Assembly: GCF_009363795.1 (NCBI RefSeq)
Contig: NZ_CP045420.1
Location: 2,647,001 to 2,711,000, forward strand
DNA from: Palleronia sp. THAF1
GTDB taxonomy: Bacteria; Pseudomonadota; Alphaproteobacteria; Rhodobacterales; Rhodobacteraceae
Direction: 5' to 3'
DNA: 64,000 nucleotides
Positions 1-14,380 of the stretch are shown in pieces. The notes below the pieces were generated by a model. It made no database searches. It saw only the letters and a program-made list of their open reading frames with translations, and was not told the origin of the DNA. How positions within the stretch are numbered: position 1 is the stretch's first letter; each line of letters begins with the position of its first letter. A program made the translations under genes and the position numbers.

Positions 1-847
1 CTGCCGCGACGACCAGCCGCCCGCCCTTGGCGGCCTCGGCGCAGATGGTTTCGGCGTCCAGCGGTTTGATCGTGGGCGAGTGCAGCACCGCGCAGGATAT
101 GCCGTCGTTGGCCAGCGCCTTCGCCGCATCCAAAGCGCGCATCGTCATGAACCCGGACGAGACGATCAGCACGTCCGTCCCGTCGACGATCATCTGTGCC
201 TTCCCCAGTTTGAACCGATAGCCGTATTCGCCCAGCACGTTCGGCACCTTGCCCCGCAGAAGGCGCATGTAGACCGGGCCGGGCGTGTCGGCGATGGCGC
301 GGGTCGCTTGGTCAATGTCCACCGCGTCGCAGGGGTCCAGCACCGTCAGGCCCGGCATCCCGCGCATGATCGCCAGATCCTCGGTCGCTTGGTGGCTGGG
401 GCCGTAGCCGGTCGACAGACCGGGCAAAGCACAGCAAATCTTGACCGGCAGGTTTTCCTCGGCAATCGCCATGGCGATGAAATCATAGGCGCGGCGCGCC
501 GCGAAGACGGCGTAGGTGGTGGCGAACGGCACGAAACCCTCGCGCGCCAGACCGGCGGCGGCGGACATCAACAGCGCCTCTGCCATGCCCATCTGGTAGA
601 AACGGTCTGGATGCGCCTCGGCAAAGATGTGCAGATCGGTGTATTTCGACAGATCGGCGGACAGCCCGACGATATCGTCGCGCGTCTTCGCCAGATCGAC
701 CAGCGCGTGACCGAACGGCGCCGCCACCGTGTCGCGTCCTTCCGCGTCGAGCGAGGCGATCATCGCGCTGGTGGCGACGCGCTCTCCATCCGGGACCGAA
801 CGCGGCGTGTATTTCGACTTGCGACGAGAGGAGGCGGGGATGTTCAC
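1..847 (-). CDS. Transketolase, C-terminal subunit (partial, runs off left edge)
   Basis: Pyrimidine-binding and C-terminal half of a two-polypeptide (split) transketolase, partner of the gene just upstream. About 282 residues are visible; the 3' end lies outside the window. The start is a GTG at 847-845 that overlaps the TGA of the N-terminal subunit gene (GTGA), giving a protein beginning VNIPASSRRKSKYTPRS. Family-type stretches are visible: GLSADLSKYTDL, then MGMAEALLMSAAAGLA and LSTGYGPSHQATEDLA. With the N-terminal subunit it should transfer a two-carbon ketol unit using thiamine diphosphate. The sugar substrate is not evident. The start was inferred from overlap and homology because no ATG is available there. 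Confidence 0.85.
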   Translation of the reverse strand, partial: MNIPASSRRKSKYTPRSVPDGERVATSAMIASLDAEGRDTVAAPFGHALVDLAKTRDDIVGLSADLSKYTDLHIFAEAHPDRFYQMGMAEALLMSAAAGLAREGFVPFATTYAVFAARRAYDFIAMAIAEENLPVKICCALPGLSTGYGPSHQATEDLAIMRGMPGLTVLDPCDAVDIDQATRAIADTPGPVYMRLLRGKVPNVLGEYGYRFKLGKAQMIVDGTDVLIVSSGFMTMRALDAAKALANDGISCAVLHSPTIKPLDAETICAEAAKGGRLVVAA

Positions 848-1695
848 AGCGGCGTCTCCTGATCCAGATGGGCAATGGCCTTGGCCCATTCGTCGGCCTC
901 GACCCGAATGAAATGGGTGCTCTCGCGGGTTTCCAGGAACGGCACGCCCTTGCACATCTTGGTGCGGCAGATGATGACGCGCGGCTGATCGCCCGGATGG
1001 TTGCGCGCGGCGTCGAAGGCGGCGACCAGCGCGTCCAGATCGTTGCCGTCAACCTCTTGCGCGTGCCAGCCGAACGCGGCCCATTTCGGGGCCTCTTCCG
1101 CGGTGGCCAGTGCGTCCAGCGTGGGGCCGTCCGCCTGCTGGTTGTTGAAATCGACGATGGCGATCAGGTTATCCAGCTTCCACTGCACGGCAGACATGAC
1201 TGCCTCCCAGGTGGAGCCTTCGCCCAGCTCGCCATCCGACAGAAGGTTGTAGACGAAGGCGTCCGACGTCTTGTGCTTTAGCCCCAGCGCGGCCCCTACG
1301 GCGATGCCCAGACCGTGGCCCAACGAGCCGCCCGTGATCTCCATCCCCGGCGTGTAGGACGCCATGCCGGACATGGGCATACGGCTGTCGTCCATCCCGT
1401 AGGTCTCGATCTCGTCTTCGGGCAGGATGCCAGCCTCTAGCAGAGCCGCGTAGAGGGCAATCGCGTAGTGGCCGATGGACAGGTAGAAGCGGTCGCGCCC
1501 CTCCCATTCGGGATCATCGGCGCGGTAGGTCATCGCGTGGAAGTAGGACGTGGCAAGCACATCCGCGACGCCCAATGCCTGCCCGATATATCCCTGCCCC
1601 TGCACCTCTGCCATACGCAGGGCATACCGCCGGATCGCCCAGGCACGGCGCGCAAGGCTGACGTTGGATCCAGAAATGTCGCGTTGATCTGGCAA
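844..1695 (-). CDS. Transketolase, N-terminal subunit
   Basis: ThDP-binding half of a split transketolase, about 283 residues. The cofactor motif is SDGELGEGSTWEA followed by IVDFNNQQADGP, and the early GQGYIGQALG and SIGHYAIALYAALLEAG segments are typical. I chose a TTG start at 1695 because GGGAGAG stands six bases upstream and family similarity begins there (LPDQRDISG); an upstream TTG at 1737 would add 14 residues with no clear ribosome site. It is translationally coupled to the C-terminal subunit through a GTGA overlap. Divergent from the oxidoreductase at 1870; the 174 bp between them should hold promoters for both arms of the module. Which ketose is used cannot be read from the sequence. 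Confidence 0.85.
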   Translation of the reverse strand: MPDQRDISGSNVSLARRAWAIRRYALRMAEVQGQGYIGQALGVADVLATSYFHAMTYRADDPEWEGRDRFYLSIGHYAIALYAALLEAGILPEDEIETYGMDDSRMPMSGMASYTPGMEITGGSLGHGLGIAVGAALGLKHKTSDAFVYNLLSDGELGEGSTWEAVMSAVQWKLDNLIAIVDFNNQQADGPTLDALATAEEAPKWAAFGWHAQEVDGNDLDALVAAFDAARNHPGDQPRVIICRTKMCKGVPFLETRESTHFIRVEADEWAKAIAHLDQETPL

Positions 1696-1774
1696 GACGG
1701 TCTCTCCCACGTCGCTATCGGGGAACAGTCGCTGCAAGTTACGGCCTGCGACAAGCGGGAAATCGTAAAGGACT

Positions 1775-1791
1775 GTTTAGCACAGCTTAAC
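1775..1791. promoter_or_regulatory. Candidate operator in divergent promoter region
   Basis: An imperfect inverted repeat, GTTTAGC-ACA-GCTTAAC (six of seven positions match across the arms), lies in the 174 bp between the divergent split transketolase and the SAF oxidoreductase. The size and symmetry suit a GntR- or LacI-type dimer. No regulator gene is inside the window, so the assignment is an inference from position and symmetry only. Confidence 0.35.
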
Positions 1792-1869
1792 GACTGCGTT
1801 GGAAAACATGATGGTTCTCTGCCATCGCCCGCCGTTATCGTGGCTTGACCCCACTGGAAGGCGCACGCC

Positions 1870-3210
1870 ATGAACCTGTCCGCAATGCTCGCCAAACGCA
1901 CCGCCGAAGGCCGCCCCGTTCGCATCGGCCTGATCGGCGCGGGCAAGTTTGGCTCCATGATCCTGGCTCAAGCGCAGCACATCGACGGCTATCACATCGT
2001 GGGCATCGCCGATCTGGATCCGTCTAAGGCCAAGGCGTCGCTGGCGCGCGTCCATTGGAGCGCCGAACAGTACGCCGCCACGTCCTTGCAGGACGCCGTC
2101 GCATCGGGGGCCACCCACGTCACCGACGATGTGGGCGCCCTGTTCTCCAACGACCAGATCGAGGTTATCATCGAGGCCACCGGACACCCCATCGCCGGTG
2201 TGCGCCACGCGATGGCGGCCATCGACGCGGGCAAGCATGTGATCATGGTCAACGTCGAGGCCGACGTGATGTGCGGCCCGATCATCGCGGAACGGGCCCG
2301 CAAGGCGGGCGTGGTCTATTCCATGGCCTATGGCGACCAGCCTGCCGCCATGTGCGAGTTGGTGGACTGGGTCCACTCCTGCGGGTTCGAACTGGTATCG
2401 GCAGGCAAGGGCATGAACTTCTGCCCCGGCTACCGCTATTCCACGCCCGATACCGTCTGGGATTACTTCGACTTCAGCGAAGAACAGGTGAAATCGGGAG
2501 ACTTCAATCCGAAGATGTACAACTCCTTCACCGACGGAACCAAGGCCGCCATCGAGATGGCCGCCGTGGCAAACGCAACGGGACTCGACTGTCCGTTCGA
2601 CGGTCTGGCCTTCCCACCCTCTTCGCTGGATGATCTGGCCGAGGTGTTTAAACCCGCAAGCGAAGGCGGGCGGCTGGAAAAGAACGGTATCGTCGATATT
2701 GCGGCCTCCCGCGAGCCCGACGGACGCTTGGTCCCGAACAACATCCAGTACGGCATGTTCGTCACCTTCCGCGCGCCCAACGAATACACCCGCCAGTGCT
2801 TCGACCAATACGGACTGCTGACCGACGCATCCGGCTGGTACGGCAGCATGTGGCGACCGTTCCACCTGATCGGGCTGGAAACATCTGTCTCGGTCCTGTC
2901 GGCGGCGTTGCGGGGCGAACCCACGGGTACGTCGAACCGCTACCGCGGCGATGCGGTGGCCACGGCCAAGGGCGATTTCGCAGCGGGCGACATGCTGGAC
3001 GGCGAAGGTGGCTTCAAGGTCTGGGCCAAGGCGATCCCCGCCAGCCGCGCCGTGGCGGAACGCGCTCTGCCCATCGGCCTTGCGCATCATGTTAAGTTGA
3101 AGCGTGACATCAAGCGCGACCAGATCGTGACGCTGGACGATGTGGAAGTGGCCGACGATCTGGATATCCACGCCTTGCGCGATGAACAGAACGCCCTGCT
3201 GGACAGCTGA
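1870..3210 (+). CDS. NAD(P)-dependent oxidoreductase with C-terminal SAF domain
   Basis: Protein of 446 residues. A Rossmann nucleotide-binding motif, GLIGAGKFGSMILA, sits at about residues 20-33, as in homoserine-dehydrogenase-like oxidoreductases; the last 50 residues (from about VKLKRDIKRDQIVTLDDVEV) are a SAF domain. Such proteins are common in sugar-acid or polyol gene clusters but their exact reactions are mostly unassigned. GGAAGGCG lies just upstream of the ATG. The transketolase gene follows two bases after its stop, so both are surely co-transcribed. I infer that it oxidises or isomerises a substrate that then enters the transketolase. No substrate is proposed with confidence. Confidence 0.8.
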   Translation: MNLSAMLAKRTAEGRPVRIGLIGAGKFGSMILAQAQHIDGYHIVGIADLDPSKAKASLARVHWSAEQYAATSLQDAVASGATHVTDDVGALFSNDQIEVIIEATGHPIAGVRHAMAAIDAGKHVIMVNVEADVMCGPIIAERARKAGVVYSMAYGDQPAAMCELVDWVHSCGFELVSAGKGMNFCPGYRYSTPDTVWDYFDFSEEQVKSGDFNPKMYNSFTDGTKAAIEMAAVANATGLDCPFDGLAFPPSSLDDLAEVFKPASEGGRLEKNGIVDIAASREPDGRLVPNNIQYGMFVTFRAPNEYTRQCFDQYGLLTDASGWYGSMWRPFHLIGLETSVSVLSAALRGEPTGTSNRYRGDAVATAKGDFAAGDMLDGEGGFKVWAKAIPASRAVAERALPIGLAHHVKLKRDIKRDQIVTLDDVEVADDLDIHALRDEQNALLDS

Positions 3211-3211
3211 T

Positions 3212-5155
3212 ATGGCAGACGTCCAGAAAATGGCCGACGCCATCCGCTTCCTTGCGATCGACGCTATCCTTAACGCGGGCGAGGGCCATCAGGGCGTGCC
3301 GCTGGGCATGGCCGAAATCGCGGCGACGCTGTATGCGCGCCACCTGAAAGCCGATCCCACCGATCCCCTTTGGCCCGATCGCGACCGGGTTCTGCTGTCG
3401 AACGGCCACGGGTCGATGCTGCTCTACGCGCTGTTGCATCTGTCGGGCTATGAGAAGGTCTCGCTGGACGCGCTGAAGTCCTTTCGCCAGTTGCACTCCG
3501 TCTGCGCGGGCCACCCCGAAATCGAGCAGGACGCAGGGATAGAGATCACGTCCGGCCTGCTGGGTCAGGGCATCGCTTGCGCCGTCGGCATGGCGGTGGC
3601 CGAAGAACGGCTGGCCGCCCGTTTCGGACGCGAGCTGGTGGATCACCGGACGTGGGCCTTCGTGGGTGACGGCTGTTTGCAGGAAGGGATGGGGCAAGAG
3701 GCGATCTCGCTCGCCGGGCATCTGCAACTGGGCCGCCTGACGTTTCTGTGGGACGACAATCAGATCACCGACGACGGCGATACCGCGCTGTCGATTTCTG
3801 AAGACGTCCCCGCCCGCTTCCGCGCGGCGCAGTGGCACGTGATCGAGGTGGACGGTCACGATATCGACGCGCTGGACGCGGCGATGGCTAAGGCGAAAGC
3901 CGATCCGCGCCCGTCGCTGCTGGCCTGTCGCACGACCATCGCGCGCGGGATCCCGCGCCTGCAGGGGAAACGCGGTGGGCATAGCGCGCCGCTGACCGCA
4001 CAGGACGCCGAAGATGCACGCTCCGACCGCGATTGGCCCTACCCGGCGTTTCAGGTGCCGCAGCCTGTTTACCGAGACTGGCGTAACGCGCTGGCGTCCG
4101 GCACACAGGCCCATGCGGGCTGGTCCGCGCGGTTGGCCGCCAATCCCGACGCCGCCGAGTACACCCGCTGGATCAGCGGCACCCTGCTCGATGGCTGGAC
4201 CGACGCCCTGCCCCGCACCAATGCGCCGCGCCCTACGATACAATCCTCTGGCGACGTCTGCGATGCACTGGCCGAAGCCTTGCCCGAAACCATCGTCCTT
4301 TGCGCCGATCTGGAAGCGCCCACGAACCACAAGCGCAGCCGCGCTGCCTTCACCCCCAACAGCCGCGCTGGCACCTATGTCCACTGCGGCGTGCGCGAGC
4401 ATCTGATGGGCGCGATGACCTGCGGAATCGCGGCGCATGGCGGGTTGCGCCCGATCAATGTCACTTACCTTGCTTTCGCCGATTACGAGCGTCCCGCGAT
4501 GCGGATGGCGGCCCTGATGGGACTGCCTGCGATCTTCGTCTTCAGCCACGACTCCATTGGCACCGGCAGCAACGGCCCGACGCACCAACCCGTCGAAACC
4601 CTCGCCGCATACCGCGCGATCCCGAACATGCGCGTCTTCCGCCCCGCCGACGCGGTAGAGACCGTCGAGGCATGGCAGATCGCATTGGAAACCCGCACCG
4701 GCCCGTCGATGTTCGCGCTGTCCCGGCAGGACGCGGACCCAGTGCGCCGCGATACGAGCAAAATCCTGTCGCGCAAAGGTGCCTACGTGCTGGCCGGGCC
4801 CGAAACGGACCGCGACGTGACCCTGATCGCCACGGGAACAGAGGTCGGTCTGGCCATGCGTGCCTGGACTACGCTGGAGGCGCGTGGCCTGCGGACCACC
4901 GTCGTCTCGATGCCCTGCTGGGAGCTGTTCGAGGGGCAGAACGCCGACTATCAGGCGCAAGTCCTTGGCACCGCACCACGCATCGCCGTAGAGGCCGCGC
5001 TGAAGTTCGGGTGGGAGCGTTGGCTGCGCCCGCAGGATCGGTTCATCGGGATGACCGGCTTTGGCGCATCGGCCAAGGGCCCGGAACTCTACGCACATTT
5101 CGGCATCACCGAAGCGGCAATCGTGGATGCTGCGACCGAACTGGTGGATCACTGA
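3212..5155 (+). CDS. Transketolase (full-length, single polypeptide)
   Basis: A 647-residue transketolase. All three domains are recognisable: the ThDP motif FVGDGCLQEGMGQEA with DDNQITDDG (about residues 150-190), the pyrimidine-domain motif GPTHQPVETLAAYRAIPNM (about 450) and a C-terminal domain. The ATG at 3212 is used rather than an in-frame upstream extension that would run into the preceding gene; it stands one base after that gene's stop. This is the second transketolase of the module, since a split version is encoded divergently 1.5 kb away. Two transketolases beside a dedicated transporter argue for catabolism of one imported compound rather than a pentose phosphate housekeeping role. 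Substrate unknown. Confidence 0.88.
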   Translation: MADVQKMADAIRFLAIDAILNAGEGHQGVPLGMAEIAATLYARHLKADPTDPLWPDRDRVLLSNGHGSMLLYALLHLSGYEKVSLDALKSFRQLHSVCAGHPEIEQDAGIEITSGLLGQGIACAVGMAVAEERLAARFGRELVDHRTWAFVGDGCLQEGMGQEAISLAGHLQLGRLTFLWDDNQITDDGDTALSISEDVPARFRAAQWHVIEVDGHDIDALDAAMAKAKADPRPSLLACRTTIARGIPRLQGKRGGHSAPLTAQDAEDARSDRDWPYPAFQVPQPVYRDWRNALASGTQAHAGWSARLAANPDAAEYTRWISGTLLDGWTDALPRTNAPRPTIQSSGDVCDALAEALPETIVLCADLEAPTNHKRSRAAFTPNSRAGTYVHCGVREHLMGAMTCGIAAHGGLRPINVTYLAFADYERPAMRMAALMGLPAIFVFSHDSIGTGSNGPTHQPVETLAAYRAIPNMRVFRPADAVETVEAWQIALETRTGPSMFALSRQDADPVRRDTSKILSRKGAYVLAGPETDRDVTLIATGTEVGLAMRAWTTLEARGLRTTVVSMPCWELFEGQNADYQAQVLGTAPRIAVEAALKFGWERWLRPQDRFIGMTGFGASAKGPELYAHFGITEAAIVDAATELVDH

Positions 5156-5293
5156 TTTACCAGGCAACGCGCCAACAAGTTGAGTGGGCACGCAGGGACC
5201 CGAAACAACCGGGTTGCACCTTCCCTACATCCCGATACCAACTACGTCCCAAGACATTGGGGCGTGCAGAACCCGGTGCCATGTGGAGGTGTC

Positions 5294-5803
5294 ATGGGTT
5301 CGATCATCAAGATCATCGATACGGTCAACGAGATCGTGGGGCGCATCGTCGTTGTGCTGGCCGCCGTCTTCGCCGCCATCATCATCTACGATGTTGTCAT
5401 GCGCTACGTCTTCAACGCGCCGACCCGCTGGGCGTTCGATCTGTCGAAGCAGCTTTACGGCTTCTATTTCATCCTCCTCGGCGGCTACGCGTTGCGCAAC
5501 AATGCGCACGTCCGCGTCGATCTGCTGATCGAACGCTTCTCTGACGGCTGGACCCGCATCGTCGAGGTTCTGGGCTACGTCATCTTCTTCTTCCCCTTCA
5601 CCTGGATCTTCCTGACCCGCTCTTACGACTTCGCGGCAACGTCATGGGCGCAGGGTGAAACGACCTACGGCGCCGTTGCGCTGCCGATCTACCCGCTGAA
5701 GGCAGCGCTTTGCGTCGCGTCAGGTCTGCTACTGATCCAAGGTGTGTCACAGGTTTTGAAGATCCTCTTCGACCACCGTGAAGAGCAGGAGATCCATCAA
5801 TGA
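5294..5803 (+). CDS. dctQ: TRAP transporter small membrane subunit (DctQ family)
   Basis: About 169 residues with four predicted membrane segments, the DctQ pattern: an N-terminal helix rich in IVVVLAAVFAAIIIYDVVM, then FYFILLGGYALRNNAHVRVD, a motif typical of the family. The ATG at 5294 follows GGAGGT by three bases, which is tight but the only good site. Its stop overlaps the large subunit start (ATGA at 5800), so the two are translationally coupled. Together with DctM and the periplasmic protein it forms a sodium-dependent secondary importer in the inner membrane. The 138 bp upstream has no gene and may hold a separate promoter. Confidence 0.88.
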   Translation: MGSIIKIIDTVNEIVGRIVVVLAAVFAAIIIYDVVMRYVFNAPTRWAFDLSKQLYGFYFILLGGYALRNNAHVRVDLLIERFSDGWTRIVEVLGYVIFFFPFTWIFLTRSYDFAATSWAQGETTYGAVALPIYPLKAALCVASGLLLIQGVSQVLKILFDHREEQEIHQ

Positions 5804-7131
5804 CCGGGCTGGGCGGCGAATCCATCGCCATCGTTATGTTCGGCTTGCTGGTGCTGGGTCTGATGATGGGCCACCCGCTGGCCTTCGTGCTGGGCGGCAC
5901 CGCCGTTCTGGGCGCGTTCATCGCCGGAAAGCCGATGGTGTTGGGCATCGTCATCAACCGCATCTTCGGGGATGTGCTGGACAATTACACGCTGATCGCG
6001 ATCCCGCTGTTCGTGCTCATGGCCCAGTTCCTCAGTAATTCGGGCGTGACCGACAAGATGTTCGAATCCCTACGATTGCTGATGTCGAACGTGCGCGGCG
6101 GACTGGCGCTGGCAGTGGTCTTCATCTCGATCCTGCTGGCGGCGACGACCGGCATCATCGGTGCGTCGATCACCGTCATGGGCGTGATGGCGCTGCGGCC
6201 GATGCTGCAATACGGCTACGCGCCGACGCTGACGACCGGCGTGATCGCCGCGTCGGGCTGTCTGGGCATCCTGATCCCGCCGTCGATCATGCTGATCCTC
6301 ATGGCGTCTTACTCACCACTGTCGGTGGGAGAGCTGTTCGCGGGCGCAATGATCCCCGGCGTCATCCTTGGCCTTCTGTACGCAGGCTGGGTCGCACTTC
6401 TGGCCGCCTTGCGCCCCGACATGGCCCCCAGCGTCATGCCCGACGACATGCCGCCGCGCCGCGAACTCTACCTCATGCTGATGAAGGAAGCGGTGCCACC
6501 GCTACTGCTGATCTTCGGCATCCTCGGCTCATTGCTGGCGGGCATCGCCACGGCGACGGAAGCCTCTGCCATCGGGGCCGCGTTGGCACTGGTCATCGTC
6601 ATCGCGCGCGGGCGCTTCAGCCTGTCCGGCTTCTACGACGCACTGCGCGAGACCGGGAAGACCAGCGCGATGATCCTGTTCATCGTGGTCGGCGCCACCG
6701 CCTTTACCGGCGTGTTCAACATCACCGGCGGGCTGCGCGCGACGCAAGAGATCATCCGCGGATTGGAAATGGAAACCTGGATGCTGCTGACGGTGATGAT
6801 GTTTATCGTCTTCATCCTTGGCGCATTCCTCGATTGGACCGGCATCGTGCTGCTGTCCTTCCCGATCTTCCTGCCCATCGTGCAGGAAATGCCATCGGTC
6901 GACCTGCTGTGGTTCGTCGTTCTGATGTCTATCGTTCTGCAAACCAGCTTTCTGACACCCCCCTTCGGCTATGCGTTGTTCTATCTGCGCGCCATTGCGC
7001 CGAAGGAGGTGAAGACCACGGACATCATCAAGGGGGTCCTGCCGTTCATCGGCCTGATCGTGATGATGTGCGTGGCCGTGGCGCTGTTTCCGGGTCTTGT
7101 GACCTGGCTTCCAGCCACGCTGTACCGTTGA
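5800..7131 (+). CDS. dctM: TRAP transporter large membrane subunit (DctM family)
   Basis: A 443-residue, almost wholly hydrophobic protein with 12 to 13 membrane segments, the length expected for DctM, the ion-coupled translocation channel. Family landmarks include GIVINRIFGDVLDNYTLIAIP, GIIGASITVMG and CLGILIPPSIMLILMASYS. It starts in the ATGA overlapping the DctQ stop and ends 29 bp before the binding protein gene. It acts in the inner membrane with DctQ to move the solute delivered by the periplasmic protein. The shared strand with the upstream oxidoreductase and transketolase suggests it feeds that pathway. Confidence 0.9.
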   Translation: MTGLGGESIAIVMFGLLVLGLMMGHPLAFVLGGTAVLGAFIAGKPMVLGIVINRIFGDVLDNYTLIAIPLFVLMAQFLSNSGVTDKMFESLRLLMSNVRGGLALAVVFISILLAATTGIIGASITVMGVMALRPMLQYGYAPTLTTGVIAASGCLGILIPPSIMLILMASYSPLSVGELFAGAMIPGVILGLLYAGWVALLAALRPDMAPSVMPDDMPPRRELYLMLMKEAVPPLLLIFGILGSLLAGIATATEASAIGAALALVIVIARGRFSLSGFYDALRETGKTSAMILFIVVGATAFTGVFNITGGLRATQEIIRGLEMETWMLLTVMMFIVFILGAFLDWTGIVLLSFPIFLPIVQEMPSVDLLWFVVLMSIVLQTSFLTPPFGYALFYLRAIAPKEVKTTDIIKGVLPFIGLIVMMCVAVALFPGLVTWLPATLYR

Positions 7132-7160
7132 GACCAAGAAAACCATTAGGGAGAGTAACC

Positions 7161-8255
7161 ATGACTATCCGTTCCAAGGCGCTTGCCGCCACCGCCATGA
7201 CGCTGACGCTTGCCGCGCCCGTCGCCGCTCAGGAAAGCTGGACGATGACGACGACGTGGCCGTCCTCGCTTGAACTGATCGAGTTCGACCGCCACTTCGT
7301 CGAATTGGCCAACCAGTTGACGGGCGACGCCCTGACCATCGAGTTCTTCGAGGGTGGTTCGCTGGTGCCAGCTGGCGAGGTGTTCGGCGCTGTGCAGTCG
7401 GGCACCGTTCAGGCCGGCGCCGACTGGCCGGGCTACTGGGCAGGCCGCGACGCCGCCTTCACCCCGCTGGCCACTACGCCGGCGCTGTTCAACGCGGTGG
7501 ATTACGTCAACTGGATCCAACAGTGGGGCGGACGTGAGTTCTATGACCAGACCTACGGCGAATACGGCATGGTCTATCTGCCCTATGGCGTGACCAACAA
7601 CGAATCCGGTTTCCACACCAACAAGTCGATGACCACGCTAGAAGACCTTCAGGGCATGCGCCTGCGTGTGTCCGGCAACGAACAGGGCCGCATCTTGGAA
7701 CGCCTTGGCGGCAGCCAGGTCTCGATGGCCGGTGGCGAAGTCTATCAGGCACTGGAACGTGGCGTGATCGACGGTGGCGAGTTCTCAACACCGAACGTCG
7801 ACTATTCGGCAGGCTTCCAGCAGGTCACGACGCACTGGTCGACCCCCGGCTGGCACCAATCGGCTTCCGTCTTCGGCGTGTCGATCAACCAAGCCGCGTG
7901 GGACGCGCTCGACGAGGACACGCAGGAAAAGCTGCGCATCGCGGCCGATGCGACGATGCTGTGGTCGCTGGCCTTCACCGAGAAGCGCGCCACCGAGGCC
8001 TACGCCAAGTGGGACGAGGAAGTGACCGTCGAGCGCTACACCGACGAAGCACTGGCAGAAGTTCAGAACATCGCGAACGAGGTGATCGTGGAGGTCTCTT
8101 GCGAGAGCCCGTCCGCAGGTGCGGTCTACCTGTCGATGGCCGAATACCTCGACAACTACGCCCAATGGCGTGAGGCATCGGCACCCTACAACCTCGGCCG
8201 CTCGCCCGATGGCCCGTCCGTAGAAGAACTGCAGGCCTGCGTCGACGGCTCGTGA
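7161..8255 (+). CDS. dctP: TRAP transporter periplasmic substrate-binding protein (DctP family)
   Basis: A 364-residue exported protein. A Sec signal occupies residues 1 to about 24, ending APVAAQ. The mature part has the DctP-family landmarks YGVTNNESGFHTNK and EDLQGMRLRVSGNEQG, where ligand-contacting residues lie. AGGGAGAG precedes the ATG. The SmoM-like subgroup to which it appears to belong binds organic acids, polyols or other small carboxylates, but specificity cannot be read off. As in many TRAP operons the binding protein comes last, after a 29 bp gap, directly before a strong terminator. Confidence 0.9.
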   Translation: MTIRSKALAATAMTLTLAAPVAAQESWTMTTTWPSSLELIEFDRHFVELANQLTGDALTIEFFEGGSLVPAGEVFGAVQSGTVQAGADWPGYWAGRDAAFTPLATTPALFNAVDYVNWIQQWGGREFYDQTYGEYGMVYLPYGVTNNESGFHTNKSMTTLEDLQGMRLRVSGNEQGRILERLGGSQVSMAGGEVYQALERGVIDGGEFSTPNVDYSAGFQQVTTHWSTPGWHQSASVFGVSINQAAWDALDEDTQEKLRIAADATMLWSLAFTEKRATEAYAKWDEEVTVERYTDEALAEVQNIANEVIVEVSCESPSAGAVYLSMAEYLDNYAQWREASAPYNLGRSPDGPSVEELQACVDGS

Positions 8256-8273
8256 TCGACTGAACAGTCAGGG

Positions 8274-8305
8274 ATGGGCCGGTCTTCGGATCGGCCCATT
8301 TCTAT
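8274..8305. terminator. Bidirectional rho-independent terminator with UUCG tetraloop
   Basis: An 11-bp stem (ATGGGCCGGTC paired with GATCGGCCCAT, one G-U) closed by C(UUCG)G is followed by TTCTATT. It lies between the convergent dctP (plus) and pcaB (minus) genes, so it most likely ends the TRAP operon and may also serve the pca operon from the other side. Confidence 0.8.
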
Positions 8306-9351
8306 TGCGGGCCAGGCATTCCACCGACCCATTCGATATCCTCTATGACCGCCGCCGCTACATCCAGACTACGCGCCGCAGCCACGCCCAGCCCCGGCAG
8401 GATCATCCACTCCAACGCCCACGCAGCGCCGGAGCGCTCCTGTTCGTGAACCTGCGCATGGTGTATCGCGGATAGCTGCGTGGCGGTGTACCGTGCGAGC
8501 GTGACCAACAATTCCGCGCGGATCGGGTTCTGCTTGTGCGGCATCGCAGATGACCCACCACCCCCGGCAATTCCAATCTCCTGCATCTGCGCCATAAGCG
8601 CGATGTCCTGCCCGATCTTGCCGCAGCTGCCCGCGATCATCGACATCAGCCCAGCGCATTCGACCAGACCGTCCCGCGTCGTGTGCCAGCAGGGTCCGGC
8701 GGAAAGGCCGAGCGCACCGGCCACATGCGCAACCATCGCCTCCGGAATGTCCCTTCTGTCGCCCACCGGGCCGCCGATCTGAACGACCTGTACACGGGGT
8801 CGCAGGGCCGCCAGCCGTGCCCGATGGCGCGGCAAAGCAGATGCCCAGCCAACGAACCGGGTTCCGGCGTCGATGGGCAGCGCGTCCTGCATCCGGGTAC
8901 GGCCCATGATGCGGGTTTGGCCGAACCGCGCATCGGCCCGCGCGAGCGCACTTTCCAATCGATTTAACCGCGTATCCAGTAGGTCGAGCGTGTGCTGCAG
9001 CGTCATCGCCAGCGCGCTGTCCATGACGTCTTGCGAGGTCGCGCCGACATGCACCGCCTCTGCCGCGTCACCGGCTGCGGCCTTCAGTGCGCGCACCAAA
9101 GCAGGTACCGGAAGGCCGTCATTCGCGGTCCCGCCGCGCAGCAGGTTCATGTCCGCTGGCCAGCCCTCAATCACCCTGGCGGCGCGTTCGGCTGTGTCCG
9201 GGTCGACGCGCCCGGTGGCACCCAGCGCGCGGGACCAGGCAGCCTCGAACGCCAGCATTTGGGACAGCTGCCGCTCTGGCGACCAGATCGCTTGCGCCTC
9301 TTCATCGGCGAACAAGCCGCCGAGCCAGGGGTGATCGAAGACAGAGATCAT
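8302..9351 (-). CDS. pcaB: 3-carboxy-cis,cis-muconate cycloisomerase
   Basis: Enzyme of the protocatechuate branch of the beta-ketoadipate pathway: it lactonises 3-carboxy-cis,cis-muconate to 4-carboxymuconolactone in the cytosol. The fumarase/aspartase superfamily signature is intact as GGGGSSAMPHKQNP, and VHVGATSQDVMDSAL carries the conserved region. At 349 residues it is the shorter form seen in alphaproteobacteria; many pseudomonad versions have an extra C-terminal domain. Its ATG overlaps the stop of pcaD (ATGA). It is the last gene of the long minus-strand run that begins at tctB or tctC. Confidence 0.93.
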   Translation of the reverse strand: MISVFDHPWLGGLFADEEAQAIWSPERQLSQMLAFEAAWSRALGATGRVDPDTAERAARVIEGWPADMNLLRGGTANDGLPVPALVRALKAAAGDAAEAVHVGATSQDVMDSALAMTLQHTLDLLDTRLNRLESALARADARFGQTRIMGRTRMQDALPIDAGTRFVGWASALPRHRARLAALRPRVQVVQIGGPVGDRRDIPEAMVAHVAGALGLSAGPCWHTTRDGLVECAGLMSMIAGSCGKIGQDIALMAQMQEIGIAGGGGSSAMPHKQNPIRAELLVTLARYTATQLSAIHHAQVHEQERSGAAWALEWMILPGLGVAAARSLDVAAAVIEDIEWVGGMPGPQ

Positions 9352-10130
9352 CCCAGCCGCGCCAGCAGATCATGGATTGCGCGGACGACGGCATCTGGCG
9401 CCTCGATGCAGGGAAGATGACCGCCCCCGTCGATAAGGCGGCACTCTGCATCGGGCAAAGCATCTGCCAACCCGGCGAGCAATTCGGGCGGCGTCGACAG
9501 GTCATCACTGCCCGCGATGCAGATCGCGGGCTTGGTGATCTCGGCCAGTCGGCTCCGCAGGTCTGTGTCGCGAATGGCGGCGCAGCAGGTGGCGTAGCCC
9601 TCGGTCGGCGTGCGGGACAGCATGGCGTGGTAGCCTGCAAGCTCGGTCGGGCGCTCGGTGCGGAAGGCGTGCGAAAACCAGCGCTCCATCACCACGTCAG
9701 CCATGACGTCCAGCCCCTGCGCAGCAAGCGTGTCCAGCCGGGCCGTCCAGAACGCATGATCGCCGATCTTCGCCCCGGTGTTCGACAGGATCAGCCCCGC
9801 GACCAGATCGGGACGCGTCAGGGTCAGCTGCTGCGCGATCAGCCCACCGACCGACACGCTGCAAACCAGCGCGTCTGTGATGACCCGCGCGTCCATCAAA
9901 GCCGCAACATCGGCGGCGTAGGTGGCCGTATCGGCGGGGTCGGTCCGGCTGAGACCGTGGCCGCGCTTGTCCATCCGCAAGATCGGATGGTCGCCTGCCA
10001 GCCGGTCGATCACCGCATCCCAGATGCGGAAATCGGTGCCGAGGCTGTTCAGGAAGACCAGTGGCCGCCCGGCGCCGGGGCGATGGGCGTAGTGGATGAC
10101 CGTCCCGTTGAGCTGGGCAAACTCAGGCAT
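9348..10130 (-). CDS. pcaD: 3-oxoadipate enol-lactonase
   Basis: An alpha/beta hydrolase of 260 residues that opens 3-oxoadipate enol-lactone to 3-oxoadipate. The opening INGTVIHYAHRPG-like region reads LNGTVIHYAHRPGAGRPLVF, the nucleophile elbow is VCSVSVGGLIAQ, and a late DGGGHLPCIEAPD gives the catalytic His. It lies between the beta-keto acid cleavage enzyme (15 bp upstream) and pcaB (overlapping), so its product is made next to an enzyme able to cleave it. Assignment rests on motifs and context. Confidence 0.92.
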   Translation of the reverse strand: MPEFAQLNGTVIHYAHRPGAGRPLVFLNSLGTDFRIWDAVIDRLAGDHPILRMDKRGHGLSRTDPADTATYAADVAALMDARVITDALVCSVSVGGLIAQQLTLTRPDLVAGLILSNTGAKIGDHAFWTARLDTLAAQGLDVMADVVMERWFSHAFRTERPTELAGYHAMLSRTPTEGYATCCAAIRDTDLRSRLAEITKPAICIAGSDDLSTPPELLAGLADALPDAECRLIDGGGHLPCIEAPDAVVRAIHDLLARLG

Positions 10131-10145
10131 GTCGGGCCACGATCA

Positions 10146-10982
10146 TCATGGCGCAGCCCGCAGGCCCAGGATCGCCCGCGCCTGCGCAGGCGTCGCGACC
10201 GTGCGCCCAGCCTCGACCACGATATCCGCCGCCCGCTTCACCAGCGCGGCGTTCGAGGGCGCAAGCGTCTCGCGGTCAAGTCGGATATTATCCTCCAGCC
10301 CGGCGCGCAGGTGGCCGCCCGCTTCGGCGGCCCAGCGGTTCAGTTCCACCTGATGCCGCCCGATCCCGGCAGCACACCAGGGCGCGTCCGCGCCGAACAG
10401 CTCATGCACCGTCTGCACGTAGAAATCGAAGACGCGGCGCACGGCGGGCATGGCGTTCTGCACACCCATGACGAATTGTACGTAGGGCGTGCCCAGCAAC
10501 TCCCCACGGTCCTTTATCGTCTTGGCCTGATAGATGTGAGACAGGTCGAACGCTTCGATTTCAGGCTTCACGTCGTAGGTTCGCATCTCGGACGCCAGCC
10601 ATGTCACCAGATCGGGCGGGTTCTCATAGACGCGCGTGGGGAAGTTGTTCGAGCCCACGGACAGCGACGCCATGTCGGGTCGCAAGGGCAGCATCCCGCC
10701 GCGCGCCTTCCCAGCGCCAGAGCGTCCCCCGGTCGAGAGCTGCATGATCATGCCGGGGCAATGCGCTTCGACCCCCTCTTTCAGAGCGGCGAAGCGGTCG
10801 GGGTCTGACGACGGCGTCTCGTCGTCGTTGCGGACGTGGGCGTGGCAAATACTGGCTCCGGCCTCGAACGCGGCGTGCGTGCTTTCGATCTGCTCGGACA
10901 GGGTCGTGGGAACGGCGGGATTGTCGGCCTTCGTCGGGACGGACCCGGTGATGGCGACGCAGATGATGGCGGGATCAGACAT
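10146..10982 (-). CDS. Beta-keto acid cleavage enzyme (BKACE, DUF849 family)
   Basis: A 278-residue TIM-barrel protein of the 3-keto-5-aminohexanoate cleavage (Kce/BKACE) family. Zinc ligands are visible in SICHAHVRND (His-x-His) and in GLEDNIRLD (Glu). Members condense a beta-keto acid with acetyl-CoA, giving acetoacetate and a new acyl-CoA. The gene is inside the pca run: its start overlaps the pcaG stop by eight bases and pcaD follows after 15 bp. From context the substrate should be 3-oxoadipate, giving succinyl-CoA plus acetoacetate and bypassing PcaIJ and PcaF, which are not seen nearby. Family assignment is firm; the substrate is inferred. Confidence 0.88.
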   Translation of the reverse strand: MSDPAIICVAITGSVPTKADNPAVPTTLSEQIESTHAAFEAGASICHAHVRNDDETPSSDPDRFAALKEGVEAHCPGMIMQLSTGGRSGAGKARGGMLPLRPDMASLSVGSNNFPTRVYENPPDLVTWLASEMRTYDVKPEIEAFDLSHIYQAKTIKDRGELLGTPYVQFVMGVQNAMPAVRRVFDFYVQTVHELFGADAPWCAAGIGRHQVELNRWAAEAGGHLRAGLEDNIRLDRETLAPSNAALVKRAADIVVEAGRTVATPAQARAILGLRAAP

Positions 10983-11586
10983 CTAGGAACACGGTCTCCT
11001 TGGGGCCTTGCAGCCGGATATCGAAGGTGTATCGCCCATCGCCTTCGGCGCGCGCGATCAAGGTGTCGCGGCGGGTGGCCGGGTCGATCAACGCCAGAAG
11101 CGGATCGGCGGCGTTCGCCTCTGCCTCATCCCCGAAATAGAGACGGGTTTGCAGCCCGACGTTGATCCCGCGCGCGACCATCCACAGCGACAGGTGCGGC
11201 GCTTGAGGGCGATCGTGGCGGCCCGGAACGGAACCGGGTTTTACCGTCTCGATGCGAAAAGACCCGGTGTCGAAGTCGGTCGCCACCCGCCCGAAGCCTG
11301 TGAAGCCGGAGTCCACCTCGGCGTGGCGCGTATCGGCGGGGTGCGGATAGATGCCGTTCGGATCGGCCTGCCAAACCTCGATCAGCATGTCGCGCACCGG
11401 TGCGCCCATGCCGTCGTAGACGTGGCCTTCAATGACAATGCGGTCCCCGACAACGTCGGGTCCGGCAATGGTCTGCCCGAACGCGATCGGATGCAGTGAC
11501 AATCCCGCAAGCGACGGCACCGTGCCGATATGGACAAACGGCCCGGCGGTCTGGGACGGCGACTCCTTGGGGTATTCCAGCGGCAT
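10975..11586 (-). CDS. pcaG: Protocatechuate 3,4-dioxygenase alpha subunit
   Basis: The non-iron-ligating subunit of intradiol protocatechuate 3,4-dioxygenase, 203 residues. Typical stretches: SQTAGPFVHIGT near the start, IEVWQADPNGIYPHP and FRIETVKPGSVPGRHDRPQA. The start is ATG at 11586, sharing one base with the pcaH stop (TGATG); an upstream open frame exists but lies inside pcaH. It pairs with PcaH to form the active site that cleaves protocatechuate to 3-carboxy-cis,cis-muconate. Its stop overlaps the start of the cleavage enzyme gene. Confidence 0.94.
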   Translation of the reverse strand: MPLEYPKESPSQTAGPFVHIGTVPSLAGLSLHPIAFGQTIAGPDVVGDRIVIEGHVYDGMGAPVRDMLIEVWQADPNGIYPHPADTRHAEVDSGFTGFGRVATDFDTGSFRIETVKPGSVPGRHDRPQAPHLSLWMVARGINVGLQTRLYFGDEAEANAADPLLALIDPATRRDTLIARAEGDGRYTFDIRLQGPKETVFLDV

Positions 11587-12302
11587 CACGCGCCTTCCAT
11601 CTTGTTCTCGAACAGCGTCTGGCGACTGCCGCGCAGAACGATGTCGAAGCGGTAGGCAAGGCTGTCCAGCGGGATCGAGGCGTTCAGGTCCAGCGGCGCG
11701 ACCAGCCGATCCAGCGCAGCGGCATCGGGGATGGTCTGGGCGATGGGGTCTTGTGCACGCAGGGGATCGCCTTCGAAATACATTTGGGTAATCAGCCGCT
11801 GCGCCAGTCCCGCCCCGAAGATCGAGAAGTGGATATGTGCCATCCGCCAAGAATTCGCGGAGTTCCGGAACGGGTAGGCGCCCGGCTTTACAGTGCGAAA
11901 GACATAACCGCCTTCGTCGTCCGTCAGGCACCGACCGCAGCCGCCGAAGTTCGGATCAAGCGGGGCAAGGTAGCCGTCCTTCACGTGCCGATACCGCCCC
12001 CCGGCGTTGGCCTGCCACACCTCCAACAGCGCACCGCGCACGGGGCGTCCGTTCTCATCCATCACGTGTCCGTGGACGATAGTGCGCTCACCGATGGCCG
12101 CTTCGCCCGTGTAGTTGTGGATCAGATCATTGTCCAAATCGCCAAGGGAGGTGTGGCTGAACGTCGGTCCGGTGATCTCGGACAGCGAGCTCTCGACCGA
12201 CAGAAGCGGCAGGCGCGGGCTGCGCGCAACGCTGGTCTTGTAGTCGGGCGTCAGCGCGGGCGGATGCCACCGCCGGTCGCGCTGGTAGTAGTCCCAACTC
12301 AT
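11586..12302 (-). CDS. pcaH: Protocatechuate 3,4-dioxygenase beta subunit
   Basis: The iron-binding catalytic subunit, 238 residues. All expected ligand contexts are present: [20 protein letters not shown] with the first tyrosine, [12 protein letters not shown] with the second, and AHIHFSIFG with two histidines. Together with PcaG it performs the ring cleavage that starts the protocatechuate branch. Start ATG overlaps the pcaC stop (ATGA), stop overlaps the pcaG start. The tight overlaps indicate one transcript with coupled translation, giving balanced alpha and beta subunits. Confidence 0.95.
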
Positions 12303-12676
12303 GGCGCGCCCTCTTCGGCAAAAGTCTCGCGCGCGATCTTCAGCGCGTGATTGGCGCGCGGGACACCAGCGTAGATCGCTACGTGCATCAGGGCCTCGCG
12401 AATATCACTGGCGCTGGCCCCCGTGCGTGCGGTTGCGCGGACGTGCATCGCAAGTTCGTCGAAATTGCCGGTTGCGGCGAGCAAGGCGATCGTCAGCATC
12501 GATCGTTCGCGCGCCGTGATCGCGTCCGATGCCCAGACAGTACCCCACGCGCCCTCGGTTATCATCTCTTGGAACGGCGCGTCGAAGTCGGTCTTCGCGG
12601 CTTCCGCGCGGTTCACATGCGCGTCCCCCAGAACAGCGCGGCGCACCCTCATGCCAGCGTCGTATCGGTCGGTCAT
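12299..12676 (-). CDS. pcaC: 4-carboxymuconolactone decarboxylase
   Basis: A small all-helical protein of 125 residues of the AhpD-like/CMD family; converts 4-carboxymuconolactone to 3-oxoadipate enol-lactone. Landmarks: [19 protein letters not shown] and [17 protein letters not shown], with the [15 protein letters not shown] segment near the C-terminus. Stand-alone form, not fused to PcaD as in some actinobacteria. Its stop overlaps the pcaH start; the dehydrogenase gene upstream ends 34 bp before it. Confidence 0.94.
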
Positions 12677-12710
12677 GGGCGGGACCTTGCGCCGGAGTGA
12701 TCGATTCGGG

Positions 12711-13553
12711 TCATGTCGGCTCCTTCGCCAATAGGTCCCGCAGCAGGCGAGCCTCGTCCAAGGGACGGTCGCAGAAATGCGCCCATGCGTGGACCCCCTG
12801 ATAGAAGAAAAGGTCCCAGCCGGACATCGCCATCAGCCCAGCCCGCGCGGCATGCTTCAGAAACGGCGTGTCGCGGGGCGTGTAGACAGAGTCGAAGGCC
12901 CAGCCTGCATTGGCCATAGCGCTGGGCTCGAGCGGGGTGCGCCCGTCGCCGTCCATCCCAAGGGGCGTGCAGTTGATCACACCCTCCGCCCCGTCTGCCA
13001 TATCCTCGGCCACCGCACCCGCCGACAGGCGCAGGCCGGACGCCGCGTTCGACATGTCGCGCGCAAGCCGTTCGGCCCGGTCGGGATCGCTGTCGGCCAG
13101 CCGGATGTCCCGCGCACCCAACGAGATCAGCGCGAAGGCAATCGCACGACCCACACCGCCCGCGCCGATCAGCAAGACCGGGCCGGGAACGGCAGCGCCA
13201 CGCTGACGCGCGTAGGCGGCCTTGAACCCGGTGTGATCGGTGTTGTGCCCCTGCGGGCCACCCGGTCCGAAAATCACGGTGTTGACGGCACCCATGGAGC
13301 GAACGAGCGGATCGTCGATCCGCACCATCGCGGCGGCGCGCTCTTTATAAGGGTACGTCACGTTGATCCCGCGGAAGCCTCCCGTCTCGCAGGCCGCGAA
13401 TACCGCCTCGAAGTCTTGGCCCAGATCGGCGGGGATAAGACTGTCGTAACGCACGTCCACGCCGGTCTGCTGTCCTGCAAGCCGGTGCAGGCGCGGCGCC
13501 TTCGACTGGGTGATGTGATCCCCGATCAGGCCAAGGTGAAGTTGCACGGTCAT
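12711..13553 (-). CDS. Quinate/shikimate dehydrogenase-like protein (AroE family)
   Basis: A 280-residue AroE-family dehydrogenase. The substrate motif is INVTYPYKERA (lysine retained) and the nucleotide site is LIGAGGVGRAIAFAL. After the second beta strand the sequence is LADSDPDRAERL, with aspartates where NADP-using biosynthetic AroE has an Asn-Arg-Thr/Ser pattern; this favours NAD and a catabolic role. I chose the ATG at 13553, preceded by GAAAGGGG, over an upstream ATG-less extension of 20 residues. Context with pca genes suggests feeding quinate or shikimate towards protocatechuate. The dehydratase that would complete this step is not in the window. Confidence 0.8.
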   Translation of the reverse strand: MTVQLHLGLIGDHITQSKAPRLHRLAGQQTGVDVRYDSLIPADLGQDFEAVFAACETGGFRGINVTYPYKERAAAMVRIDDPLVRSMGAVNTVIFGPGGPQGHNTDHTGFKAAYARQRGAAVPGPVLLIGAGGVGRAIAFALISLGARDIRLADSDPDRAERLARDMSNAASGLRLSAGAVAEDMADGAEGVINCTPLGMDGDGRTPLEPSAMANAGWAFDSVYTPRDTPFLKHAARAGLMAMSGWDLFFYQGVHAWAHFCDRPLDEARLLRDLLAKEPT

Positions 13554-13609
13554 GCTGGCCCCTTTCGAACCCTGTCCCGCCCGATGGATGCAGGAAGGCT
13601 GCGCGCGCT

Positions 13610-14380
13610 TCAAGTCGGGTCGTGGGTCCAGCGGTAGCTAGGCGGCGTGGGGCCCTTGTTGCGCCCGCCCTGTTCGGTCTGCTCCCACGCGTGGGCCAGG
13701 ATGCCGACGCTGCGCGACAGCCCGAAGAACCCGCGCGCCAACGGGCCGGGGCAGCCGAGTTCGCCGTAGATCACGGCTGTCGCGCCGTCGATGTTCAGGG
13801 ACAAGGGCGCGCCCCGTTCGCGTTGCAGATGCGCCCCAATGGCCCGAGCGGTCGCGGCCAACGTGCCGCCAACAGCGCCCTGTGCCGCCGCTTCATCCAC
13901 CAGCGCGAGCAATCGCGGCGCGCGGGGATCGACGGGTTTGTGAAAGCGGTGGCCGAAGCCGGGCAGGTATTTGCCATACTCCGCGCGCCAGCTATCCAGC
14001 GCAGCGGACATCGCGTCGCCTTCCAGGCCGGCACAGGCATCGAACAGCGCGATGGCCTGTTCCCCGGCCCCTCCGTGCACATCGCCCAGCATGTTCAGAC
14101 CCGTTGCCATCGACGATTGCAGCCCAATCCCGCAGGTCGCCGCCATCCGCGCCGCCGCGATAGAGGGTGCTTGCGGGCCGTGATCCACCGCGGCCACAAG
14201 CGCGGCCTCGAACAGCGCGGCACGGGAGCCCTCGATGCGGTTGCCCATGACGAGAAACCAGATCGTTTCGGCGAAGCTCATCGCGCCGATGATCTCTTCG
14301 ATAGGCGTGCCGCGCAGGGCGATGCGGCCCGGCTCCATGTCGATGATAGAGGTGCGCCACCAGTCGGAAACGTCGCTCAT
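13610..14380 (-). CDS. Citryl-CoA lyase-like protein (citrate synthase fold)
   Basis: A 256-residue protein built on the small and large helical core of citrate synthase but much shorter than the usual 370-430 residues. Catalytic surroundings are kept: GDVHGGAGEQAI, GFGHRFHKPVDPRAPRL, and NIDGATAVIYGELG. Such short proteins are annotated as citryl-CoA lyases, cleaving a 3-hydroxy-3-carboxyacyl-CoA to acetyl-CoA and a keto acid. The start overlaps the stop of the CoA-transferase (ATGA), so the pair probably acts in sequence: activation then cleavage. The true acid could be citrate or a relative; not proven by sequence. Confidence 0.75.
   Translation of the reverse strand: MSDVSDWWRTSIIDMEPGRIALRGTPIEEIIGAMSFAETIWFLVMGNRIEGSRAALFEAALVAAVDHGPQAPSIAAARMAATCGIGLQSSMATGLNMLGDVHGGAGEQAIALFDACAGLEGDAMSAALDSWRAEYGKYLPGFGHRFHKPVDPRAPRLLALVDEAAAQGAVGGTLAATARAIGAHLQRERGAPLSLNIDGATAVIYGELGCPGPLARGFFGLSRSVGILAHAWEQTEQGGRNKGPTPPSYRWTHDPT

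Follow-up and report, generated by a model that had tools for sequence, protein, structure and literature searches.

A conserved set of genes that probably imports and degrades an unusual sugar acid spans the left edge of a 64,000-nucleotide stretch of Palleronia sp. THAF1 DNA (G000:C1:2647001-2711000, genome size 3.34 Mb; hereafter the window). It encodes an oxidoreductase related to type II 1-deoxy-D-xylulose 5-phosphate reductoisomerase (DXR-II) with a predicted change in its substrate site, and two extra transketolases with apparently altered phosphate sites, one of them split into separately encoded N- and C-terminal halves (TKN and TKC) and the other full length (TK2). As the original prediction, made from the letters of the window, had described, the split transketolase lies on the minus strand, divergent from the oxidoreductase, the full-length transketolase and DctQMP on the plus strand, and the module is cut by the left edge of the window. 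It continues for about 12 kb to the left, where a 3-hydroxyisobutyrate-dehydrogenase-family (HIBDH) enzyme and a short-chain dehydrogenase/reductase (SDR) follow on the minus strand. The proposal that an acidic sugar is imported and degraded by a dehydrogenase followed by transfer of a two-carbon (C2) unit held for the enzymes, which probably form such a module, and failed for the transporter in the window as its importer. To the general claim that the gene set carries out kinase-free oxidation and then C2 transfer from an unphosphorylated aldonate-type sugar acid, a claim not tied to one substrate, we give about an even chance.

Genomic association of the oxidoreductase and the split transketolase

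The association of the two enzymes was examined in 248 genomes of the family and in a class-wide sample of 337, both counts including the window's own genome, with identity limits of 58%, 64%, 63% and 66% that were chosen after inspecting each list. The oxidoreductase (at least 58% identity, next matches 55% and below) was present in 15 of the 248 family genomes and TKC (at least 64%, next match 48%) in 24 of them, and TKC occurred in 12 of the 15 oxidoreductase genomes versus 24 of 248 overall (Fisher 1.2e-11, uncorrected for relatedness). One of the three oxidoreductase genomes without TKC, G008, has a partial TKC match of 78 residues. Outside the 248-genome sample, TKC at 63% or more was found in 30 of 50 oxidoreductase genomes, a subset of the best 80 of 200 relatives with many from few genera, versus 7 of 337 (at least 66%) in the class-wide sample. 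Within this set the split transketolase lies inside the stretch in L097, TKN lies at the stretch end in L122, and the genes are outside the stretch elsewhere; L059, L077, L082, L111, L117 and L135, where the split transketolase is likewise not in the stretch, were left out of the 50-genome test. The oxidoreductase and the split transketolase go together beyond chance.

Gene neighbourhoods, which the original prediction had proposed comparing for the oxidoreductase, agree with this association. Among 55 distinct split-transketolase loci, 29 hold the oxidoreductase, head to head with the split transketolase in 27 of the 29. An SDR gene was found in 50 of the 55, some tripartite ATP-independent periplasmic (TRAP) transporter in 39, an HIBDH-family gene in 24 and TK2 in 16, so that two transketolases in one module, thought unusual at first, are a recurring pattern. 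The 86 distinct oxidoreductase loci contain a half of the split transketolase (at least 60%) in 31 cases, an ABM protein in 44, a tartronate-semialdehyde-reductase-like gene in 43 and a GntK-like kinase in 14. Only exact duplicates were removed in counting distinct loci, HIBDH counts include threonate-dehydrogenase-type neighbours and the stretches around the oxidoreductase reach up to ~10 kb; since the loci were gathered through the oxidoreductase and the split transketolase themselves, the figures hold for this sample and should not be read as natural frequencies.

The split transketolase stands in a unit of its own in 13 stretches, from Methylobacterium, Caballeronia, Burkholderia, Herbaspirillum, Roseomonas, Martelella, Halomonas and three metagenome-assembled genomes, and also in others of the family. 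The stand-alone unit typically reads LysR-SDR-TKN-TKC, often with an HIBDH-family gene and TRAP and sometimes with TK2. Five of the 13 have no TRAP match (L186, L188, L192, L193 and L195), and L186, L188 and L195 carry a major facilitator superfamily transporter, by eye of organic-acid families. Such units suggest that the SDR and the split transketolase together suffice to open an acid; the DXR-II-like enzyme may feed the same chemistry from another substrate. A TIM-barrel, sugar-isomerase-like protein adjoins the split-transketolase unit in three loci (L181:11545-14092, L191:10244-12818 and L179:7527-8333; 64-69% identity between loci), followed by a dihydroxyacetone-kinase-family gene in L181 and L191; no NCBIfam model matched the L181 TIM-barrel protein at E ≤ 1e-20.

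A second architecture, seen in L109, L110, L112, L118, L121 and similar loci, combines the oxidoreductase, an ABM protein, a tartronate-semialdehyde-reductase-like enzyme, TRAP and a GntK-like kinase, with no split transketolase in the stretch, and GntK and TKC tend toward mutual exclusion. In L093 and L096, both from Methylobacterium, the oxidoreductase lies near OiaX-like and OiaK-like genes with no ApnO match in the stretch; in L096:10001-15275 the oxidoreductase, ABM protein, OiaX-like, OiaK-like and SDR genes all run in the same direction.

It is a second TRAP system, outside the window, that is conserved as importer; its DctM2, encoded left of the window, was found at 60% or more in 24 of the 55 split-transketolase loci, and its binding protein DctP2 is encoded at L006:9448-10461. 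The TRAP system in the window (system 1), described in the original prediction as the own importer of the two transketolases and the oxidoreductase, was rejected as a conserved feature. Orthologs of its DctP occur in 15 of the 248 family genomes, of which only the window's own also has the oxidoreductase at 58% or more, and ten of the ortholog loci hold DctQMP without module genes; neither this DctP nor this DctM, at 50% identity or more, was found in any of the 86 distinct oxidoreductase loci. A keto-acid binder (7ug8) and members of the TTHA0766 family of lactate binders are among the nearest PDB sequences of DctP and DctP2; the best match of DctP2, 4pe3, is deposited under a name that mentions no ligand. 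Judged by these relatives, the TRAP ligand is more likely an acid than a polyol.

Substrate-site residues of the oxidoreductase and the transketolases

The oxidoreductase had been labelled a SAF-domain protein in the original prediction. No Pfam SAF match was found in it at E ≤ 0.001, and its Pfam matches are instead DRL_cat (PF21135, 189.4 bits, cut-off 27), GFO_IDH_MocA and NAD_binding_3. It is similar over its full length to 3upl (219.3 bits, E 1.1e-63), and 3upl and 3upy were the sole PDB sequences matched. PMC3847144 identifies 3upy as the DXR-II of B. abortus and, in 2013, defined DXR-II alongside two uncharacterised sister groups, DLO1 and DLO2; there, fosmidomycin is anchored in DXR-II by T229 together with K191 and K193, and DLO2 members carry Pro, Ser or Ala at position 229 (section 6). 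In the clade of the window's oxidoreductase (94 rows, duplicates included), K191 is kept, K193 is Met in 94/94, T229 has become Ala in 92/94 and Ser in 2/94, and H250 in the numbering of that paper is Ala in 89/94. The window's oxidoreductase, in consequence, lacks two of the three fosmidomycin-anchoring residues (K193 and T229) and retains K191, and its Ala at 229 is a residue named for DLO2. In the same family, GKGKN and T229 are both retained, as in DXR-II, by ten distant relatives; this comparison rests on the ten GKGKN rows among 20 distant rows, the others being L215 (a distant relative), L216 (48-55% group) and eight wrong-strand or unaligned reads. The oxidoreductase stands on the DXR-II frame but fails the DXR-II residues tested, and by its residue at 229 it appears to fit the uncharacterised DLO2 group.

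It is the one DRL_cat protein in the window's genome, which also encodes a normal DXR-I, so the oxidoreductase is not needed for making methylerythritol phosphate; with the DXR-II residues lost as well, an isoprenoid role was rejected as unlikely. AlphaFold modelled the oxidoreductase with a mean pLDDT of 68.8, and a large part of its catalytic domain fell below 50. No common partner was seen by eye around six less similar oxidoreductases (L053-L058, 48-54%).

A profile search found five Transket_pyr loci in the genome. On the basis of their sequences, L001 is assigned as the housekeeping transketolase, L002 as 2-oxoglutarate dehydrogenase E1 and L004 as DXS, and the other two are the module's. 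The module's enzymes are accordingly not the only transketolases of the genome, which the original prediction had said would make them housekeeping, and this role was rejected for them, a separate housekeeping transketolase being present at L001.

Residues, numbered as in E. coli TktA (K-12), were compared among 14 distinct TK2, 44 distinct split enzymes and, as controls, the best-matching transketolase from each of 30 relatives. H66, H261, E411 and H473, which we take to be the catalytic residues, are kept in 14/14 TK2 and 44/44 split enzymes, while the full set of presumed substrate-phosphate ligands of TktA (R358, S385, H461 and R520) is present in neither enzyme. Position 358 is R in 30/30 controls, I in 14/14 TK2 and a residue other than R in 43/44 split enzymes, its column in the split enzyme being uncertain by one residue. 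Position 461, H in 30/30 controls and in TK2, is L in 43/44 split enzymes and M in the remaining one; position 385 is Y in 44/44 split enzymes and P or T in TK2, depending on a one-residue gap. R520 is kept in 44/44 split enzymes and 13/14 TK2 (K in one), and position 469 is N in 14/14 TK2. According to PMC12016104, an engineered TktA carrying R358I/H461S/R520Q turns 5-ketogluconate, an unphosphorylated keto acid, into tartaric semialdehyde. That TK2 naturally has I at 358 and that the split enzyme has lost both R358 and H461 is a hint, not proof, that unphosphorylated keto acids are the substrates.

A more distant split transketolase (46-50% identical) is encoded in L182 (G239:C2:139000-158999) together with, by eye, ABC importer genes, two FGGY-kinase-like genes and SMP-30-like and alcohol-dehydrogenase-like genes; this locus possibly encodes a sugar route with phosphorylated substrates.

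A proposed kinase-free route and competing explanations

In the route that we propose, the second TRAP system would import the acid, and NAD(P)-dependent oxidation by the oxidoreductase, or by the SDR for other substrates, would yield a ketol acid, HOCH2-CO-CHOH-...-COOH; with a branched acid, a DXR-like skeletal shift could be part of this oxidation. The split transketolase would then detach the two-carbon ketol unit, with no phosphorylation beforehand, and release a semialdehyde acid, glyoxylate from a C4 acid or tartronate semialdehyde from a C5 acid. The neighbouring HIBDH-family enzyme may reduce the released acid or oxidise the substrate at C2, and TK2 may pass the C2 units into the pentose-phosphate pool. 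These reactions follow established DXR and transketolase chemistry. The engineered TktA of PMC12016104 is the only published precedent found. A more specific version, which we consider doubtful, is that DLO2 is a catabolic oxidoisomerase that performs oxidative DXR-type chemistry on an unphosphorylated branched acid, R-C(OH)(CH2OH)-CHOH-COOH, to give a ketol acid, which the keto-acid transketolase pair lacking R358 would cleave to a C2 unit and tartronate semialdehyde without a kinase. No function for DLO2 and no description of this module were found among the papers listed by literature searches that lay mostly outside subscription journals.

Several observations weigh against this route. The two units are separable: no oxidoreductase at 58% or more was found in 12 of the 24 TKC-bearing genomes of the family, nor any TKC at 63% or more in 20 of the 50 oxidoreductase genomes examined. 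TKC is usually missing where a GntK-like kinase lies near the oxidoreductase (11 of 14 loci), so a kinase route may replace the transketolase there; this contrast is exploratory and counts any GntK match at E ≤ 1e-8. The engineered pattern is only partly present, TK2 retaining H461 and R520 and the split enzyme R520. More distant split transketolases beside kinase-like genes (L163/L182) also have Y26 and the loss at 358, so the pattern is no proof of an unphosphorylated donor, and loss of R358 was rejected as such proof. On the import side, 2hzk, a close relative of DctP, is deposited as a sorbitol/mannitol binder, although we take it to be the keto-acid binder TakP. ABC sugar importers lie beside the oxidoreductase in L099, L123, L135 and the less similar L124, which shows that in some loci the substrate may be something other than an acid. 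Finally, a same-strand run 35-44 kb left of the window (L227; G000:C1:2603253-2611995) holds LtnD-like, OtnK-, OtnC-, OtnI-, OiaX-, OiaK- and ApnO-like, 2-hydroxyacid-dehydrogenase-like and, by eye, aldolase-like genes. C4 tetronate and apionate-type routes seem, from their genes, to be joined there in one cluster, and this run probably already provides the genome with its C4 and D-apionate routes.

The same run bears on two alternatives. It is unlikely that the module is a C4 or simple linear acid route in which the oxidoreductase would simply dehydrogenate an acid of the threonate/erythronate type, and glyoxylate would be freed from the 3-oxo acid by the split transketolase. The HIBDH-family enzyme matches L-threonate dehydrogenase best (the L172 copy scores 349.0 bits against a cut-off of 350), and OtnI/OtnC/OtnK-type threonate genes adjoin the oxidoreductase in several loci, e.g. 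L075, L079 and L084; a separate LtnD/OtnK/OtnC/OtnI-like run is, however, already present in the window's genome, and a DXR-II-type catalytic domain would be unusual for a plain dehydrogenase. Quite unlikely, too, is a variant of the D-apionate route, which runs through ApnO, OiaK and OiaX, in which ApnO or the oxidoreductase would make 3-oxo-isoapionate and the transketolases would split it to a C2 unit and hydroxypyruvate, bypassing the OiaK kinase and the OiaX-type enzyme. The original prediction had pointed to D-apionate routes, and a contextual link to them is supported by at least one ApnO/OiaK/OiaX-like match in 8 of the 86 distinct oxidoreductase loci (in L068 only a fragment) and by the codirectional genes of L096; a split apulose-4-phosphate transketolase, AprA/AprB, is part of D-apiose routes. 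Yet 78 of the 86 loci have none of these genes, and OiaX-like and OiaK-like proteins score 447-461 and 482-562 bits, well under the curated cut-off of 700 (441 for the OiaK-like protein of the window's genome). ApnO and the oxidoreductase, moreover, coexist in several loci and in the window's genome, so they are not simple substitutes, and the ApnO-OiaK-OiaX-like part of the run, 37-40 kb left of the window, makes D-apionate unlikely as the only substrate of the module and weakens the candidacy of the oxidoreductase as sole D-apionate enzyme. The ORF reading gave no ApnO, OiaK or OiaX in window positions 1-14000 or in L006, the 15 kb to the left; the statement in the original prediction that no kinase or RuBisCO-like gene is visible thus stands for the module including L006 and fails farther out, since genes for an OiaK-like kinase and for an OiaX-like, RuBisCO-like protein are present at 38-40 kb to the left of the window.

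Distinctly unlikely, as well, is the view that two independent modules share a niche here, with the oxidoreductase unit acting on one acid, the SDR-split-transketolase unit on another, and both brought together only by a Rhodobacterales sugar-acid island. Each unit is found alone, more sugar-acid genes lie within 45 kb in the window's genome, and distinct loci of the second architecture pair the oxidoreductase with ABM, tartronate-semialdehyde-reductase-like and sometimes GntK-like genes with no transketolase in the stretch; against this, the co-occurrence persists when the genes sit at different places in the genome (the 30 of 50 versus 7 of 337 above, many of the 50 being from few genera). 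Salvage of 2-C-methyl-D-erythritol or a relative, with the oxidoreductase running DXR chemistry backwards to 1-deoxyxylulose, is highly improbable. It would suit membership of the DXR-II superfamily and the many carriers in Methylobacterium and other genera known from plants, but the nearest binding-protein relatives indicate acids, 1-deoxyketoses are poor ketol donors for transketolase, and K193 and T229 of DXR-II are lost.

If the proposed kinase-free route is true, the module would add a transketolase-based path without a kinase to sugar-acid catabolism. The strong tie to the split transketolase, the SDR and the importers gives the uncharacterised DLO2 group a concrete setting and a testable role, and transketolases in which the engineered R358I change occurs naturally could find use as keto-acid catalysts.

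Layout of the locus and comparison with known systems

The features of the module within the window are collected in Table 1. TKC runs off the left edge of the window and reaches its stop codon 197 bases farther on (L006:14804). The TTG start of TKN at 1695 was inferred from the orthologs L039 and L061, the open frame extending to 1737. Divergent promoters are probable in the region between the head-to-head genes.

Table 1 Features of the sugar-acid module and TRAP system 1 in the window
Feature	Coordinates	Strand	Evidence
TKC, C-terminal half of split transketolase	1..847 (start near 847 is our own reading)	minus	Transket_pyr 108.5 and Transketolase_C 99.4 bits; nearest PDB sequence 6yaj, Carboxydothermus split transketolase
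TKN, N-terminal half of split transketolase	844..1695	minus	Transketolase_N 133.5 bits; nearest PDB sequence 6yak
Intergenic region separating head-to-head genes	1696..1869		Gene order; identical order in 27/29 distinct loci with both genes
DXR-II-like oxidoreductase (DLO2-like), 446 aa	1870..3210	plus	DRL_cat 189.4 bits; 3upl 219.3 bits; residue comparison
TK2, full-length transketolase, I at TktA R358 position	3212..5155	plus	TIGR00232 679.7 bits, slightly below cut-off 682.25; residues
DctQ, TRAP system 1, not a conserved module partner	5294..5803	plus	PF04290 89.8 bits; ortholog loci
DctM, TRAP system 1, not a conserved module partner	5800..7131	plus	PF06808 251.8 bits; at least 50% identity in 0/86 distinct oxidoreductase loci
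DctP, TRAP system 1 solute-binding protein	7161..8255	plus	PF03480 144.2 bits; nearest PDB sequence 7ug8, named ketoacid-binding protein; orthologs in 15/248 family genomes

Left of the HIBDH-family and SDR genes, LysR, an FAH-type hydrolase and GntR are encoded on the plus strand and the second TRAP system, an enolase-superfamily-like gene, PhyH and a UxaA-like gene on the minus strand; LysR, GntR, the enolase-like gene, DctQ2 and DctM2 were identified by eye, not by profile scan. The PhyH dioxygenase-family and enolase-superfamily-like genes (L006:4767-6826, minus strand) lie between the second TRAP system and the UxaA-like gene and recur in several related loci. The module SDR could not be given a specific function; among 25 listed models, it passed the cut-off for a glucose 1-dehydrogenase subfamily model only. 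To the right of TRAP system 1, positions 8302-12676 on the minus strand hold what is by eye a protocatechuate cluster (pcaB-, pcaD-, pcaG/H- and pcaC-like genes) enclosing a DUF849/BKACE-like gene at 10146-10982.

Compared with characterised systems, the module's HIBDH-family enzyme resembles L-threonate dehydrogenase (NF043037, its best model, 335.1 bits) and tartronate semialdehyde reductase (189.3 bits), both of the HIBDH superfamily, but falls below both cut-offs (350 and 340.75). The D-apionate gene set ApnO-OiaK-OiaX, described in PMC11747546, has relatives near the oxidoreductase in the few loci noted above and elsewhere in the window's genome, whereas the module itself is without these three genes and the related proteins lie under the curated cut-offs. 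The oxidoreductase shares with DXR-II/DRL of Brucella abortus (3upl/3upy) the DRL_cat domain, full-length similarity, K191, R320, E174 and the NVEAD stretch, and differs from DXR-II in having Met for K193 and Ala for T229 and H250, in the DXR-I of the same genome and in its catabolic setting; its Ala at 229 is shared with DLO2 as delimited in PMC3847144. Like the engineered TktA R358I/H461S/R520Q of PMC12016104, TK2 naturally carries I358 and the split enzyme is without R358 and H461; unlike it, both keep R520 (K in one TK2 row) and TK2 keeps H461. The two-chain architecture is that of the Carboxydothermus hydrogenoformans split transketolase (6yaj/6yak), whose chains are the nearest PDB sequences (190.9 and 223.5 bits). 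In those chains the motifs GHPG, TREAYG and THAG retain their H, R and H, respectively, where the module's split enzyme has Y, V/A and L.

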